In this document: piece after piece, positions 11,619 to 19,234 of the stretch
Layout: each line of letters begins with the position of its first letter
Numbering within the stretch: position 1 is the first letter of the stretch
Made by a program: the position numbers and the translations under genes
Notes under the pieces: generated by a model
The model's input: only the letters and a program-made list of their open reading frames with translations
The model's database searches: none
Told to the model about the DNA's origin: nothing
DNA from: Klebsiella pneumoniae
Lineage (GTDB): Bacteria > Pseudomonadota > Gammaproteobacteria > Ga0077536
Assembly: GCA_945876945.1 (NCBI GenBank)
Contig: CAMCQE010000036.1
Location: 1 to 32,263 of the forward strand
Direction: 5' to 3'
Length of the DNA stretch: 32,263 nt

Positions 11619-12011
11619 GTGAACAGCAATATGAAAATCCTGATCGTTGACGACTTTTCAACGATGCGCCGAATCATCAAGAACCTTTTGCGGGATCTCG
11701 GCTTCAACAACACGCATGAAGCGGATGATGGCAACACTGCTCTGCCTATGTTGAAGAGCGGTGGTTTCGATTTTCTCATCACCGACTGGAACATGCCGGG
11801 GATGCAGGGCATTGACCTGCTTCGGGCCGTTCGGTCAGACCCTAATCTGAGCTCGCTACCGGTGCTCCTGGTGACCGCCGAAGCACGACGAGATCAAATC
11901 GTTCTCGCCGCTGAAGCAGGCGTAAACGGGTACATCGTCAAGCCATTCACTGCCCAAACGCTCAAAGAAAAAATCGACAAGATTTTCGAGCGAATCGCGG
12001 CGACCACTTGA
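11619..12011 (+). CDS. cheY: CheY, chemotaxis response regulator
   Basis: CheY is the diffusible receiver protein that, when phosphorylated by CheA, binds FliM and changes rotation. The 130-residue product is a lone receiver domain. Asp11 and Asp12 form the acidic pocket, Asp56 is the phosphorylation site (LITDWNMPG), and Thr86, Tyr105 and Lys108 complete the switch set. The GTG at 11619 is preferred over the ATG at 11631, because AAGAGGAG ends ten bases before the GTG but too far from the ATG. It lies 46 bp after fliA and 38 before cheZ. Confidence 0.97.
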   Translation: MNSNMKILIVDDFSTMRRIIKNLLRDLGFNNTHEADDGNTALPMLKSGGFDFLITDWNMPGMQGIDLLRAVRSDPNLSSLPVLLVTAEARRDQIVLAAEAGVNGYIVKPFTAQTLKEKIDKIFERIAATT

Positions 12012-12049: not shown

Positions 12050-12718
12050 ATGGAGACCGCAGAGCGCCTTGCGCTAGCCCGCCAACTGGTTGCCGCCTTA
12101 GAGACCGGCAACGAAGAACAAATAGTTCATTTTCTACGAGCCATTCAGGACGTGCGCTCCACGCCATTAATTCGCCATCTGGCTGAACTCACCCGCGATG
12201 TCCACCAATCGCTGCTCGGGCTCAGCGCGGACCCGCAGTTGGTCGAATTAACCAAGAACAACATGCCTGACGCGCGTAACAGGCTGAGCTACGTGATCGA
12301 AAAAACGGAAGACTCGGCGCACCGCACGCTGGCTGCAGTTGAAGACATGATGCCGCTTGCCGAGCGTCTGGCCTCCGGTGCTTCGGAGCAAGTGCTGGGC
12401 GGTGACCCCGCCGCTATCCAGGCTTACGTCAATGAAACGGTGGTCACCGGCGAAGTGCTGCGGGGAGGCTTGACGGAAGTGCTGATGGCGCAAGAGTTTC
12501 AGGATCTCACCGGACAGGTCATCCGCCGCACGATCGATCTTGTGAGTGAGGTTGAGAAAAAACTCGTGGCGCTCATCACATCGGAACTGCCGGCTAGCGG
12601 CGAGTCTCTCCGGGCAAGCGGGCCGAATGGTGTGAATGGGCCCGCACTGAAAAGCGATGTTGGGGCGATTCATCATCAGGATGATGTCGACGCATTGCTC
12701 GCGGAGCTCGGCGTCTGA
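12050..12718 (+). CDS. cheZ: CheZ, CheY-P phosphatase
   Basis: CheZ is a long helical-hairpin dimer that dephosphorylates CheY-P. The 222-residue product has the catalytic segment AQEFQDLTGQVIRR with Asp152 and Gln156, which match the Asp/Gln pair of E. coli CheZ. The C-terminal CheY-docking peptide QDDVDALLAELGV occupies residues 210-222 after a flexible linker. AGAAAGGAAA lies just upstream of the ATG. CheZ is confined mainly to beta- and gammaproteobacteria, which supports the taxonomic reading. Confidence 0.96.
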   Translation: METAERLALARQLVAALETGNEEQIVHFLRAIQDVRSTPLIRHLAELTRDVHQSLLGLSADPQLVELTKNNMPDARNRLSYVIEKTEDSAHRTLAAVEDMMPLAERLASGASEQVLGGDPAAIQAYVNETVVTGEVLRGGLTEVLMAQEFQDLTGQVIRRTIDLVSEVEKKLVALITSELPASGESLRASGPNGVNGPALKSDVGAIHHQDDVDALLAELGV

Positions 12719-12894: not shown

Positions 12895-15123
12895 ATGGAT
12901 GATGAAATTTTACAAGACTTCCTCGTAGAGGCTCAGGAAATCCTGGATAACCTCGATTCCCAGCTGATCAATCTGGAGGGGTCGCCCAACGATCAAGGAC
13001 TACTGAACGCGGTTTTTCGCAGCTTCCACACCATTAAAGGTGGCGCTGGATTTTTGTCTCTCGATGCGTTGGTAGAAGTCGCGCACAAGTGCGAAGACGT
13101 GTTCGATCAGCTACGCAACGGCAAGTTCTCACTCAACGCGCAAGTGATGGACGTCTTTCTTCGAGTCCTCGATTCGCTGCGAGAAATGTTTGACGCCCTC
13201 AGAAGCGGTAAGGTGCCTTCACCAGCCGCGCCCGCGTTGCTGGAAGAACTTCGCCTGATCGCAAGCGGCCAGTTTAGCGTTGAGCCGTCGAGTGTCACGT
13301 CTGCCACGGAACCGGTCGAAGCGACCGTGGCGATTGAAGCCAACGCCGAAATTGAGCCGTCCGACAACAACAGCATTGGCGAATTCGATGATGTGGTCGC
13401 TGGCATGTTAGCTAGCGTGCCTAACGCCAGCGGAATGCCAGCCGGGGCATCTCAGGCTACGTCGGTCGTTGCCGCGAGCGGCGCGCTCATCTCCGACGAC
13501 GAGTTTGAATCGCTTCTCGATACCTTGCAGGCCAAGCGTCCGGTGACGCCCTTGCCTGCTGCGCCAGATCTGATCACCGATGACGAGTTCGAATCTCTGC
13601 TCGACAATCTGAAGTCTCAAAAGGCCCCGATTGTCGATGCGCCCAAAATCGAACCTGCACCTGCACCTGCAGCTGCAGCCGTGACCAGCAGCGGCCCGGA
13701 CATCATCACTGACGACGAATTCGAACGTTTGTTGGACAAGCTGAATCCTGCAGCTAAGGTCGAGGAGCCCGCCAAGCCAGCAAGCAAAGCGGCTGACCGT
13801 GCCAGGCCCAAAAAAGAACCGCCGCCAACCGCCGCTGCCGAGGGCTCGGCTGTGGTGGATGCACCGGTCGAAGCATCGGTTGAAGCGCGCCCGCCGAAAC
13901 GCAAGCCGGCTGAACCCAAAGAAGGCGGGGCGGATAAATCGGCGGATAGCGCAAACGCGGATGCCAACACGATTCGTGTCGGCATCGATGTGCTCGACCG
14001 CATCATGAACATGGTCGGCGAACTCGTATTGATCCGGAATCGATTGTCGAATCTGCAAGTCAAGGTGGCCGATCCGGAAGTGACGCAGGCCGTGAGCAAT
14101 CTGGACGTCGTGACCAGCGACCTGCAGATGGCGGCTATGAAAACGCGCATGCAGCCGATCAAGAAAGTGTTCGGTCGTTTCCCCCGCGTGGTGCGCGATT
14201 TGGCGCGCAACCTCGGCAAAGAAGTCGAACTTGAGATGGCGGGCGAGGACACTGACCTCGACAAAAATCTGGTTGAAGCGCTTTCCGACCCGCTCGTCCA
14301 TCTGGTGCGTAATGCCGTCGACCATGGGATTGAACTACCGGCCGCCCGCTTGGCCGCAGGCAAACCCAAAACGGGAACCTTGCGACTTTCCGCAGAGCAG
14401 GATGGCGACCAGATCCTGCTCACCATTCAGGACGACGGCAAAGGGATGAATGCCGAAATCCTGCGTGCAAAGTCCGTAGAAAAAGGTTTGCTCGAGGAGG
14501 ACGCGGCGCTGCGTCTGACCGAGCGCGAGTGCTTCGAGCTCATTTTCCTGCCCGGTTTTTCGACCAAAGACGAAATCAGTGACGTTTCTGGGCGCGGCGT
14601 GGGGATGGACGTTGTGAAGACCCGCATCACCCAGCTTAACGGCGCTATCGAAATTGATTCCAAAGTCGGCGTCGGCACGACCATTCGTATTCGGGTGCCG
14701 CTGACGCTTGCGATTATGCCGACCTTGATGGTGCATCTGGGGCGTCAGATCTTTGCGCTGCCCCTCATGAACGTTAAAGAGATTATCGACTTCCGGCGCG
14801 AGCAGGCGCACGACGTTGACGGTCGGAAGTCTTTGGTCGTGCGTGGTCGGGCCTTGCCTCTCTTCTATCTCAGCCGGTGGCTAATCGACGGCGTCTATGA
14901 CGTGGCGGTCGATGAAGGTCATGTCGTGATTGTGTCGGTAGGCAGTCAATCAATCGGGCTCATCGTTGATGAACTGCTGGGTCAGGAAGAAGTGGTGATT
15001 AAGCCGCTGGGCGCCATGTTGCACGGGACCAGAGGGCTGTCAGGAGCGACCATCACGGGCGACGGTCGAATTGCGCTGATTCTGGATTTACCCGAGTTGC
15101 TTGATGTCTACGGCCGCCGCTAA
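12895..15123 (+). CDS. cheA: CheA, chemotaxis histidine kinase
   Basis: CheA phosphorylates CheY and CheB in response to receptors. The 742-residue product starts with an Hpt (P1) domain whose phospho-accepting His45 lies in FHTIKGGAGFL. A long low-complexity linker (about 125-355) contains three copies of a DDEFExLLDxL motif, at residues 201-211, 229-239 and 273-283, and PAPAPAAAA runs. No folded P2 domain is recognisable there. Dimerisation (P3) begins near NTIRVGIDVLDRIMNMVGELV. The ATPase (P4) shows the N-box HLVRNAVDHGIE, DDGKGM and GRGVGMDVVK. The CheW-like P5 domain ends the protein. cheB follows after 29 bp. Confidence 0.97.
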   Translation: MDDEILQDFLVEAQEILDNLDSQLINLEGSPNDQGLLNAVFRSFHTIKGGAGFLSLDALVEVAHKCEDVFDQLRNGKFSLNAQVMDVFLRVLDSLREMFDALRSGKVPSPAAPALLEELRLIASGQFSVEPSSVTSATEPVEATVAIEANAEIEPSDNNSIGEFDDVVAGMLASVPNASGMPAGASQATSVVAASGALISDDEFESLLDTLQAKRPVTPLPAAPDLITDDEFESLLDNLKSQKAPIVDAPKIEPAPAPAAAAVTSSGPDIITDDEFERLLDKLNPAAKVEEPAKPASKAADRARPKKEPPPTAAAEGSAVVDAPVEASVEARPPKRKPAEPKEGGADKSADSANADANTIRVGIDVLDRIMNMVGELVLIRNRLSNLQVKVADPEVTQAVSNLDVVTSDLQMAAMKTRMQPIKKVFGRFPRVVRDLARNLGKEVELEMAGEDTDLDKNLVEALSDPLVHLVRNAVDHGIELPAARLAAGKPKTGTLRLSAEQDGDQILLTIQDDGKGMNAEILRAKSVEKGLLEEDAALRLTERECFELIFLPGFSTKDEISDVSGRGVGMDVVKTRITQLNGAIEIDSKVGVGTTIRIRVPLTLAIMPTLMVHLGRQIFALPLMNVKEIIDFRREQAHDVDGRKSLVVRGRALPLFYLSRWLIDGVYDVAVDEGHVVIVSVGSQSIGLIVDELLGQEEVVIKPLGAMLHGTRGLSGATITGDGRIALILDLPELLDVYGRR
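13489..13743 (+). repeat. Three copies of an ISDDEFESLLD-type motif within cheA
   Basis: The CheA linker carries ISDDEFESLLDTL (residues 199-211), ITDDEFESLLDNL (227-239) and ITDDEFERLLDKL (271-283), spaced 28 and 44 residues apart. They are protein-level repeats, with differing codons, so they are kept by selection rather than by recent duplication. Confidence 0.85.
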
Positions 15124-15152: not shown

Positions 15153-16244
15153 ATGACTACGCCAGGCCCTTCGATCGCGCCGCCATGGCGAGTGTTGATC
15201 GTGGAGGACTCGGCTTTTTATCGCGCCCAATTAGCGCGAGTGATTGGCGCAGACCCTGCATTTGTTGTCGTCGGGGAAGCGAGCAACGGGCGCGAGGCGG
15301 TGGCATTGGCGCATAAGTTGCGGCCCGCCATTGTGACCATGGACGTCGACATGCCGTTGATGGGCGGCATTGAAGCCGTCCGCGAAATCATGCGGGTCGC
15401 ACCGACCAAAATCGTGATGCTGTCGACTTACACCCACGCCGGCGCGGAAACCACGCTTGACGCGCTTGATGCTGGGGCTGTTGACGTCATTCCGAAGCGA
15501 GCGCTCCAGCACGGGAGTGATGGGGTCAGCGCTTCGGCTTTACGCGATCGACTGCGCGCCATCCTTGGTGAGACCTTACCTGCTTCGACTGTCGTCGCGC
15601 CGCGCGCCGGTGTGCGTATGCCGGAGACATCTCCCCAACCCAGCGCGACCAGCGCCAATTCACACCCTGAGTTTCGGGACTACAGTCTGCTAGTCATCGG
15701 GGCCTCCACCGGCGGACCGGCACTATTAGGTGAGTTAATGGGCGCGTTCCAGCCTGATTTCCCTGCGGCCGTGCTCATCGCCGTGCACATGCCAGAGCCT
15801 TTCATCGCCTGTTTTGTAGAGCGTTTGGGGCGGCGGAGTCGTCTACCGGTGGTTGAGGCGGTGCATGGGACATCCTTGCCGCCTGGCACTGTGGCTTTGG
15901 CACCCGGGGGCATGCAGACGCGGGTGACCCGTGCGAACGGCAAAATTTATCTCGACGTGCAGCGAGCACTCCCCGAGGAAATTTATAAGCCAAGCATCGA
16001 CATCACGCTGGCGAGCGTCGCCATGCAGATGGGGAAAGATGCGCTGGCCGTCATTTTGACGGGTATGGGCAGCGACGGCTGCGAAGGCGCGCGGGCCTTG
16101 GTGAGCGCCGGTGGCAAGGTCTGGGCGCAGGATGAAGCCTCTTCTGCGGTTTTCGGCATGCCCGCCGCTGTGATTCGAGCAGGGCTCGCCTCCGATGTGT
16201 TGTCGCCGACGGAACTGGCTAACCGACTACGCAGGAGCCGCTGA
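15153..16244 (+). CDS. cheB: CheB, receptor methylesterase response regulator
   Basis: CheB removes methyl groups (and deamidates Gln) on chemoreceptors for adaptation when activated by CheA. The 363-residue product has a receiver domain with phospho-acceptor Asp64 (VTMDVDMPLMGG), a variable linker at about 135-172, and the methylesterase domain. Catalytic Ser185 lies in GASTGGP, His212 in VHMPEPF and Asp308 in TGMGSDG, giving the full triad. The cognate methyltransferase cheR is not in the window. motC begins two bases after the stop. Confidence 0.96.
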   Translation: MTTPGPSIAPPWRVLIVEDSAFYRAQLARVIGADPAFVVVGEASNGREAVALAHKLRPAIVTMDVDMPLMGGIEAVREIMRVAPTKIVMLSTYTHAGAETTLDALDAGAVDVIPKRALQHGSDGVSASALRDRLRAILGETLPASTVVAPRAGVRMPETSPQPSATSANSHPEFRDYSLLVIGASTGGPALLGELMGAFQPDFPAAVLIAVHMPEPFIACFVERLGRRSRLPVVEAVHGTSLPPGTVALAPGGMQTRVTRANGKIYLDVQRALPEEIYKPSIDITLASVAMQMGKDALAVILTGMGSDGCEGARALVSAGGKVWAQDEASSAVFGMPAAVIRAGLASDVLSPTELANRLRRSR

Positions 16245-16987: not shown

Positions 16988-17907
16988 GCAAGCGTCGACC
17001 CCTGACGCGCCCGGTTGAAGATCATGAAGAATCCGAGGGCCGCGAACGCTGGCTGATTTCCTACGCCGACTTCATCACCCTGTTGATGGCGTTCTTTGTC
17101 GTCATGTATTCCATTTCATCGGTGAATACCGGCAAGTTTCGGGTGTTGTCCAATTCGCTTGAGGCCATGTTGGCGCCCGTGCCCAATCGGCCTGTGCCCG
17201 TTGACCTTGGCGGTGGCGCGATGCCGCGCGACGGCCTTCTTGATGCGTCGCGCAACATCGCAGCAGTTGACGAGCCTTCGGGCAGTGATGCTGTAAACGT
17301 AGTGACGCCGGACATCGTGGCGCCCACCGCTGTGCCGGTCGTGGGAACACCGAGAGAGAAACTGGAGGCGGTGCTGGGAGAAATGGGCGGGCGGGATGAC
17401 GTTGAATTCCGCGAAACGAAAGACTGGCTGGAGATCGTCCTCGGTAGCGAACTGCTTTTTCCATCAGGCAGCGCGAAGCTAAACGTCTCGGCCAACGCGG
17501 CGTTGGCGAAAATTGCCGGCATCGCGGCTGATATGGGCCATCCCGTTCGGGTGGAAGGATTTACCGATAACGTCGCCTTGCTGGGTGGCCCGTATGGCTC
17601 GAACTGGGGGCTTTCGGCGGCAAGGGCGGCAAGTGTTGCCGAGCGCATGGCGGCAGGTAGAGTCCGCCCCGAGCGCCTGTCGGCGGTAGGTTTTGGGGAA
17701 CATCGTCCGATTGCTGACAACGCAACGCCAGAAGGCCGACGCCAAAACCGCCGAGTGGTCGTCGCGATCGCCAAAAATGACAACGTAAAATTGGCGGCAG
17801 ATGGCGATGTGGCCAATCAGGCCGCGGAGGAGCCGGCAAAACAAGAACCGGCCCAATCCTTGCAGAGAGTTAGTGAACTTCCAGGACCTGCGGAGATCGC
17901 TCAATGA
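16984..17907 (+). CDS. motD: MotD, MotB-type stator anchoring subunit
   Basis: MotD pairs with MotC and anchors the stator to peptidoglycan. The 307-residue product has a charged N-terminal tail. A membrane helix at about 25-45 carries the ion-binding Asp29 in ISYADFITLLMAFFVVMYS. A Pro/Val-rich periplasmic linker follows, and an OmpA-like domain spans about 150-255 (VEGFTDN...LSAARAASVAERM...GEHRPIADN...RRQNRRVVVAI). A Gln/Glu-rich tail follows. The GTG start overlaps the motC stop (GTGA). Confidence 0.95.
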   Translation: MSKRRPLTRPVEDHEESEGRERWLISYADFITLLMAFFVVMYSISSVNTGKFRVLSNSLEAMLAPVPNRPVPVDLGGGAMPRDGLLDASRNIAAVDEPSGSDAVNVVTPDIVAPTAVPVVGTPREKLEAVLGEMGGRDDVEFRETKDWLEIVLGSELLFPSGSAKLNVSANAALAKIAGIAADMGHPVRVEGFTDNVALLGGPYGSNWGLSAARAASVAERMAAGRVRPERLSAVGFGEHRPIADNATPEGRRQNRRVVVAIAKNDNVKLAADGDVANQAAEEPAKQEPAQSLQRVSELPGPAEIAQ

Positions 17908-18707
17908 AAATCTGGACCATTGCCGCTCAAAAAGGCGGGGTTGGTAAAACCACTACTACTATCAGTCTCGCCGGCGCGCTGTTGCGCGAGCGGGCTCGAG
18001 TATTACTTGTTGATTTGGATCCCCACGGATCCTTGACTCAATACTGTGGCTTCGACCCGGATCAGGTGGAGCCCAATCTCTATTCCCTGTTCGCGGCCGC
18101 AGCCGAGGACAACATGATCGGCATCGACGATCTGGTGTTGCCCACCCAAATCGAAGACCTCAGTATCGCGCCGTCCTCCACCGCTCTGGTAACGCTGGAA
18201 CGACGTTTCGGCTTGAAGCAGGGCATGGGACTCGCGCTCAAGCGCAGTCTCGCCCGAGCTTCCAAACACTACGACTATTGCCTTATCGACTGCCCGCCCA
18301 CCCTTGGGGTGTTGGTGGTGAACGCGCTGGTGAGCTGCGAACAGCTGATTGTGCCAGTGCAGACCGAGTTTCTGGCCGAGCGGTCGATTGACCGTCTGCT
18401 GGGCACGCTGAAGATGATTGAAAGCGCGCGCGGTACGCCGCTGCCGCATCTGGTGGTACCTACTTTGTTCGATCGGCGCACGCGTGCCGCCACCGAAACG
18501 CTTGCAGCGATTCGTGCGCGGACCGACATCAACCTCTGGGGGGGAGTAATTCCGGTCGACACACAGTTGCGCGAAGCCAGCCGTCTGGGTGTGCCACTGA
18601 CGCTGCGTCAACCCTATGCGCGCGGCAGCATTGCCTATCAGGCCCTGCTTGCCTCGCTGCGTAATGAACCCGCCGACCTTGCAGAGACGCTGAGGGACGT
18701 GGGATGA
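17904..18707 (+). CDS. parC: ParC, ParA-like ATPase for chemosensory array positioning
   Basis: ParA-family ATPases next to che genes position arrays at the cell pole; the Vibrio and Pseudomonas members are called ParC. The 267-residue product begins at once with the deviant Walker A motif KGGVGKTTTT. It then has LLVDLDPHGSLTQYCG (Walker A' region) and DYCLIDCPPTLG (Walker B). There is no N-terminal DNA-binding helix-turn-helix, unlike plasmid ParA type Ia. It is locked between motD and parP by four-base overlaps on both sides. No ParB gene is present, consistent with a protein-positioning role. Confidence 0.92.
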   Translation: MKIWTIAAQKGGVGKTTTTISLAGALLRERARVLLVDLDPHGSLTQYCGFDPDQVEPNLYSLFAAAAEDNMIGIDDLVLPTQIEDLSIAPSSTALVTLERRFGLKQGMGLALKRSLARASKHYDYCLIDCPPTLGVLVVNALVSCEQLIVPVQTEFLAERSIDRLLGTLKMIESARGTPLPHLVVPTLFDRRTRAATETLAAIRARTDINLWGGVIPVDTQLREASRLGVPLTLRQPYARGSIAYQALLASLRNEPADLAETLRDVG

Positions 18708-19234
18708 GCGTTTCAGAATTCAAACCTCGCAAGACTTCCACCGCAGAAATCGTCGCGAGTTACCTGCAGGATCACTTGGAAGGCGTGCTCGCGCCGCCCG
18801 TAGTGGTGCCAGACATTCTTCTGGAGGCGCCTGCGCCGACGCCTGTGGACCCGGACGTCTTACGGGTGATGAGTTTTATGGCTGGGCCTTTCCGCTTTTT
18901 ATGCCCCGTCGATGCCGTGTTGTCCGCGGCCCCGGATAGCCCCTGCGCCATGGTGATAGACGCGGCAGATCTGGTGCCTGATCCCTATCGCGCCCAACTG
19001 GGTCAGAACCTGCAGATCGGACGGGACTCCATCTGGCTCAAAGGGGGGCGGCTCGAAATTCGTGGCTGCCGTCTGGAGCAATCGCTGGAAATTCGTCAGT
19101 CCAACTTGACCTCGCGGGGGCCGCGCGCGGCGGCACCCTGGATCGGGGCCACGCTGCGCGACCCGCCGGCGTTTGTTCTCGATCCGGATGCCACCCAGCT
19201 GCATTTCATGCGCCGGCTACGCTCGGGCGAATGA
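18704..19234 (+). CDS. parP: ParP, CheW-like array-partition protein
   Basis: ParP links ParC to CheA and the receptors so that arrays stay at the pole. The 176-residue product has a short N-terminal part with a Pro/Val-rich stretch (APPVVVPDILLEAPAPTPVDP) for partner binding. A divergent CheW-like domain follows from about residue 48 (VLRVMSFMAGPFRFLCPVDAVLSA), corresponding to the array-integration domain of ParP. Sequence alone would allow a generic CheW paralogue. The ATGA overlap with the ParA-like gene and the position before cheW make ParP the better name. Confidence 0.85.
   Translation: MSVSEFKPRKTSTAEIVASYLQDHLEGVLAPPVVVPDILLEAPAPTPVDPDVLRVMSFMAGPFRFLCPVDAVLSAAPDSPCAMVIDAADLVPDPYRAQLGQNLQIGRDSIWLKGGRLEIRGCRLEQSLEIRQSNLTSRGPRAAAPWIGATLRDPPAFVLDPDATQLHFMRRLRSGE

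Follow-up and report, generated by a model that had tools for sequence, protein, structure and literature searches.

What takes the place of P2 in a CheA kinase that lacks this domain is the question raised by the cheA gene (12895–15123) of the window, by which we mean the whole 32,263-nucleotide stretch of DNA analysed here. The gene lies on the plus strand, as do all window genes and motifs whose coordinates are given below. It encodes an F6-type CheA of 742 residues, for which Pfam searches and an AF2 model give P1, a disordered linker, P3, P4, and P5, with no P2; the Pfam domains are Hpt (P1), H-kinase_dim, HATPase_c, and CheW. The genes of the window are ordered fliA, cheY, cheZ, cheA, cheB, motA, motB, parC, a ParP-like gene, cheW, and DUF2802. 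They follow the order fliA-cheY-cheZ-cheA-cheB-motAB-parC-parP-cheW, which we take to be the mark of class F6. An antisense open frame of 305 residues (13408–14325) lies on the opposite strand beneath the cheA linker; long antisense frames, this one included, are common within the window and look like composition artefacts.

The linker between P1 and P3

The linker of the window CheA contains three near-identical copies of the pattern [ST]DDEFExLLDxL, which are putative docking motifs. Copy 1, DDEFESLLDTL, spans residues 201–211 (13495–13527); copy 2, DDEFESLLDNL, spans residues 229–239 (13579–13611); and copy 3, DDEFERLLDKL, spans residues 273–283 (13711–13743). The AF2 model places helices at residues 201–213, 229–241, and 273–283, respectively. 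The original prediction had located three such motifs in a linker without a folded P2, and re-reading of the sequence found its positions exact. Of 200,000 shuffled versions of the window linker, 199,159 lacked the pattern [DE][FILVM][DE]xLL, 839 had it once and 2 twice, and none reached three occurrences. The three copies diverge at many synonymous codon positions, and therefore do not reflect a recent DNA duplication. A fourth, degenerate copy may lie upstream of copy 1, where GEFDDVVAGML at residues 162–172 (13378–13410) overlaps a low-confidence short helix (residues 166–170); four copies are found in three CheAs of the same genus (L013/L167, L015/L168, and L016). No such motif occurs in the linkers of the other CheA-like proteins detected in the window's genome. 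Membership of the window CheA in the SHOCT family was rejected, its match scoring 16.3 bits against a curated cut-off of 27, and we read the match as a resemblance of the helix start; some Pfam SHOCT match occurs in 33 of 60 F6 CheAs.

The AF2 model, computed from 60 sequences, has a mean pLDDT of 77, and the linker falls below 50 over most of residues 132–358 except for the three motif helices. The model of a Vibrio CheA (L198) has helices at residues 180–191, 227–237, and 269–280, at its three motifs, and nothing else ordered between P1 and P3. Neither model has a folded domain in this region. By the models and the alignment, order and conservation within the linker are confined to the motifs. 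The absence of P2 from the window CheA was borne out by three observations: no Pfam P2/CheY-binding match, no match to a P2 profile, and no P2 fold in the model. Pfam gave no P2/CheY-binding match in any of 60 F6 CheAs either, which is a weak test because Pfam also missed P2 in 13 of 13 non-F6 CheAs. For this insensitivity, Pfam alone was abandoned as the test of P2 and replaced by structure prediction and a custom profile built from six P2-bearing Gammaproteobacterial CheAs. With this profile, no motif-bearing CheA scored above 5 bits, and P2-type CheAs scored 66–149 bits. The 181 CheAs of at least 550 residues comprise 165 with the motif and no P2, nine with P2 and no motif, seven with neither, and none with both; the motif side of this set includes named loci fetched for carrying the motif, and six of the nine P2 CheAs trained the profile. 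Among 30 CheAs fetched with a P2-bearing query, two of which repeat training sequences, P2 was found at 77 bits or more in 26 and the strict motif in none. Hence, the motif and P2 are mutually exclusive in the sampled CheAs. Both the P2/CheY-binding domain and the motif array sit between P1 and P3, and docking of CheY/CheB is the job proposed for the array; P2 is a folded domain, whereas the motif linker has neither a P2 profile match nor a P2 fold.

A published survey reports that over half of all CheAs have no P2 and that the region there is extended and unstructured (PMC10542144); the word "motif" does not occur in it. In the open-licence literature, outside which the 2014 LID paper and a 2018 review lie, we found no prior description of the CheA linker motif.

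Conservation and distribution of the motif

CheA homologues were collected from a draw of 274 Gammaproteobacterial genomes, 115 of which had a match at E ≤ 1e-100. All matches from the class were fetched with their neighbours except the window's own and a 336-residue fragment (G247). Linker counts left out CheA open reading frames in which P1 was not found or the linker had 40 residues or fewer, identical linkers were counted once, and no linker could be delimited for L038/L066 (length 0). The 113 distinct linkers contain 236 matches to the strict pattern, whereas 200 shuffles gave 0.4 on average and 3 at most. A slightly looser pattern, found in 102 linkers, is present once in nine of them, twice in 39, three times in 45, four times in eight, and seven times in one, so that a motif-bearing linker has one to seven copies, usually two or three. 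The median spacing between copies is 42 residues (interquartile range 36–47). The rest of the linker is variable, with 36% Ala plus Pro. The seven-copy linker, 546 residues long with extended AAPAKP repeats, belongs to a CheA of 1073 residues (L107:7551–10769, minus strand).

The consensus of the CheA motif is x-I-[TS]-[DE]-[DE]-E-F-[ED]-x-L-L-D-x-L-H-G. Alignment of 60 F6 CheAs shows no variation at two positions of the last copy, the Phe and the second Leu. When the window CheA is compared with that of a congener (L009), 38 of 42 motif residues are kept, as against 61 of the 130 residues aligned in the rest of the linker, where 53 more are gapped. The codon has changed at 20 of the 38 kept motif residues, and such conservation of residues in spite of codon change amounts to purifying selection on the motif peptide. 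The motif is thus far from lacking in close relatives, as linker alignment and copy counts alike show, and it is a near-constant feature of F6-type CheAs in the sampled Gammaproteobacteria.

In a draw of 299 genomes across the phylum, 87 of which (the window's own genome included) belong to the window's class, a DNA pattern for the motif followed by HG matched 37 genomes, all from that class, and none of the 212 genomes outside it. The genomes of named species have at least 119 motif stretches; the 80 matches listed are all Gammaproteobacteria by title, and among these matches are Pseudomonas, Vibrio, Shewanella, Marinobacter, Aeromonas, Alteromonas, Stenotrophomonas, and Succinivibrio. A looser DNA pattern also matches other contigs, several of them reading [DE][DE]F[DE]xLLDF. 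This match recurs away from cheA in seven genomes (G277, G287, G244, G154, G217, G216, and G263), which points to a further conserved family that has a similar helix. Motif matches in ParC, such as DDFDYVLIDCPP, were set aside as chance.

Resemblance to CheY-binding peptides

The window encodes two peptides of the CheY-binding type, as had been pointed out before, namely the FliM N-terminal SQDEIDALLS, of which SQDEIDALL covers FliM residues 8–16 (1732–1758), and the CheZ C-terminal QDDVDALLAELGV at CheZ residues 210–222 (12677–12715). We built a 14-column profile from 240 occurrences of the motif outside the window's family and ran it over 249,040 scan windows, taken from the open reading frames of our window and of 40 pieces of 20 kb from the same genome. 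The three motifs of the window CheA rank first. The FliM N-terminal LSQDEIDALLSG ranks 9–10 and the CheZ C-terminal HHQDDVDALLAELG ranks 23–70, both depending on smoothing; five to six unrelated scan windows outscore FliM, and more lie above CheZ. The FliM and CheZ positions had been named beforehand as known CheY ligands, and such ranks are therefore unlikely by chance.

The CheA motifs share with these peptides an acidic helix with a hydrophobic-[DE]-x-L-L core. Among CheZ C-termini, 93 of 96 fit the core hydrophobic-[DEN]-x-L-L, with the consensus QD[DE]VDDLLSSLGF. The FliM peptide, like the CheA motif, is an acidic amphipathic helix of the form DE-hydrophobic-D-x-LL, but it occurs as a single copy at a protein terminus, has Ile instead of Phe, and lacks the LLDxLHG extension. 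The CheZ peptide, QD[DE]VD-x-LL-x-x-LG, spaces its hydrophobic residues as the CheA motif does, down to the last Leu, but is a single C-terminal copy with Val instead of Phe and mostly Ser after LL. With its nearly invariant Phe and its Asp after LL, the CheA motif is not identical to either known peptide. An acidic amphipathic helix is also a generic shape, which counts against a CheY-specific reading, as do the SHOCT matches of F6 CheAs and the unrelated scan windows that score above FliM and CheZ.

The proposed ligand is CheY (cheY, 11619–12011). Residues I95, Y106, F111, L116, and K119, in what we take to be E. coli CheY numbering, are invariant in 97 of 97 F6 CheYs and form the core of the α4-β5-α5 face. 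According to one report, FliM and CheZ bind a common face of CheY (PMC3774744). Another states that F6-system CheY and F7-linked CheY differ at P2-facing positions (PMC7184735); the window CheY has R, Q, and V at three such positions.

Our best reading is that the motifs rather likely constitute a multivalent docking site for CheY that replaces P2. The FliM/CheZ-like profile, the exclusion of P2, and the standing of the motifs as the only ordered conserved linker elements favour this part of the original prediction; evidence given below speaks against ParP as the sole partner. We infer CheY binding, the face used, and the kinetic role as follows. The P1–P3 linker of F6 CheAs would be a disordered, Ala/Pro-rich tether with tandem, individually capped amphipathic helices, and these would dock the CheY receiver via its α4-β5-α5 face, as the FliM N-terminus and the CheZ C-terminus do. 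Standing in place of P2, the array would raise the local concentration of CheY beside P1 for phosphotransfer; CheY would be held near P1, phosphorylated, and then released to FliM and CheZ. The number of copies, from one to seven and usually two or three, would set the avidity on the flexible tether. Kinase, phosphatase, and motor would then each present a form of one shared peptide and, for that reason, be competitors for a single surface of CheY. The receivers of CheB or CheV possibly bind the same motifs too. Whether all this extends across the F6 lineage (which includes Pseudomonas, Vibrio, and Shewanella) we judge evenly balanced: there, tandem motifs mimicking FliM and CheZ would dock CheY instead of P2, with varying copy number, the cassette could also sit in a ParP/CheW-like protein, and kinase, phosphatase, motor, and scaffold would compete via one peptide code.

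What would be new is the docking of CheY by linear motifs and not by a folded domain. If the motifs dock CheY, a large group of P2-less CheAs would gain a concrete, mutable docking site, and the sharing of one messenger by kinase, phosphatase, and motor would be explained by one peptide code. It could then be tested directly with peptides and point mutants. The P2-less group takes in model species for which drawings of CheA still show a P2/CheY-binding domain: P. putida CheA appears with five domains, one of them CheY-binding (PMC11978298, from 2025), and V. cholerae CheA with a P2/CheY-binding domain (PMC7534058).

ParP and other candidate partners

The motifs, or the copy nearest P3, might instead be the LID, the site where the AIF domain of ParP holds CheA in polar arrays, a reading that we regard as unlikely. 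Two papers describe the Vibrio LID as a CheA region between P2 and P3, present only in CheAs accompanied by ParC/ParP, which binds the AIF domain of ParP near W305 (PMC7534058, PMC5706961). Like the motifs, the LID lies within the P1–P3 stretch of the same CheA class. Since the Vibrio CheA (L198) has no P2 and its motifs are the sole ordered elements, the LID may well overlap a motif; in F6 linkers generally, Vibrio included, no other ordered element is conserved, and parC and a ParP-like gene are present in most clusters. Of the window's own pair, parC (17904–18707) is assigned from Pfam and neighbourhood as a ParA-like polar anchor, and the gene between parC and cheW (18704–19234) encodes a highly divergent ParP-like protein, the rival ligand. 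This protein has 176 residues and a C-terminal PWIGAT, comparable to RPWLAGT of typical ParPs. It has no Pfam match, CheW included, and a search at E ≤ 1e-5 with a ParP profile of 20 members missed it, yet the window CheA retains three copies. Among 18 genomes examined, the window ParC as query found a ParC orthologue in nine (186–288 bits) and only general ParA proteins in the other nine (≤128 bits). Within the latter nine, the ParP profile detected ParP in G213 alone (103.6 bits), and the remaining eight gave CheW-level matches (27–32 bits) or none. All eight keep the repeats: seven have 4, 2, 2, 2, 1, 1, and 3 copies, and G060 has two degenerate ones; two of these loci (L148 and L149) have no CheZ within the fetched 12 kb. 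Thus, whereas the LID is defined by ParP binding and reported only together with ParC/ParP, the motifs persist in genomes without either, the one degenerate case included. Given this retention and the divergence of the window ParP, ParP is therefore not the maintainer of the motif everywhere, although it may use one copy in some species. The last copy does not stand clearly apart from the others in sequence. A ParP-specific last copy was considered and dropped, as a GKGKGPT tail is only mildly commoner in last copies, too little to assign partners. The finding of one or three motif copies in the ParP/CheW-like protein itself, in two clusters, also argues against the LID. As to Pseudomonas/Stutzerimonas, parC lies near the F6 cluster in five of ten loci of up to 8 kb (L179, L186, L187, L194, and L218), P. 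aeruginosa not being among them; a 2025 paper states that P. aeruginosa has no ParC/ParP-related genes (PMC12410967).

It is quite improbable that the motifs dock CheB, CheV, or CheW rather than CheY, or act as generic stickers that join CheA molecules within the array. CheB (cheB, 15153–16244; Response_reg and CheB_methylest domains) has a receiver and may be a second receiver ligand, and in CheAs of the E. coli type P2 is reported to dock both CheB and CheY (PMC11978298); docking of CheB alone, however, would not account for the mutual exclusion of motif and P2. Multivalent assembly would suit repeated short helices on a disordered tether, but neither stickers nor CheW binding would explain the resemblance to the FliM and CheZ peptides. 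A further reading, in which the repeats escape selection or serve structure alone within a linker of low complexity, is very hard to credit: the linker is indeed Ala/Pro-rich and variable, but the motif is conserved far above the rest of it and occurs far above shuffles, and the invariant Phe and second Leu of the last copy in the 60 aligned CheAs speak against it as well.

The motif also occurs in a protein other than CheA. In Pseudoxanthomonas sp. PXM02, a CheW-domain protein encoded after parC (L204:6369–7460; L380:4373–6325; minus strand) has three copies in its own linker and a ParP-like N-terminus, LDDYLQDLLGD. The cluster also encodes an F6 CheA with one strict copy and a second CheA, which has P2 but lacks the motif. 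The related G576 (L383) has one copy in the same ParP/CheW-like protein; the counterparts in L381, L382, and L384 have no motif, and in L385 and L386 the ParP/CheW-like gene was not identified. A cassette in another array protein fits the docking of a mobile ligand such as CheY and fits poorly with a ParP-binding site; a homotypic contact in the motif-bearing ParP/CheW-like protein is possible. The ParP/CheW-like proteins of two Xanthomonadaceae-like clusters (L384:2538–4487 and L382:4199–5362; minus strand) contain other short repeats, WDDLPDEVI[HY][ED]T and ANLALLDELMNDPALGP, which are perhaps docking motifs of their own.
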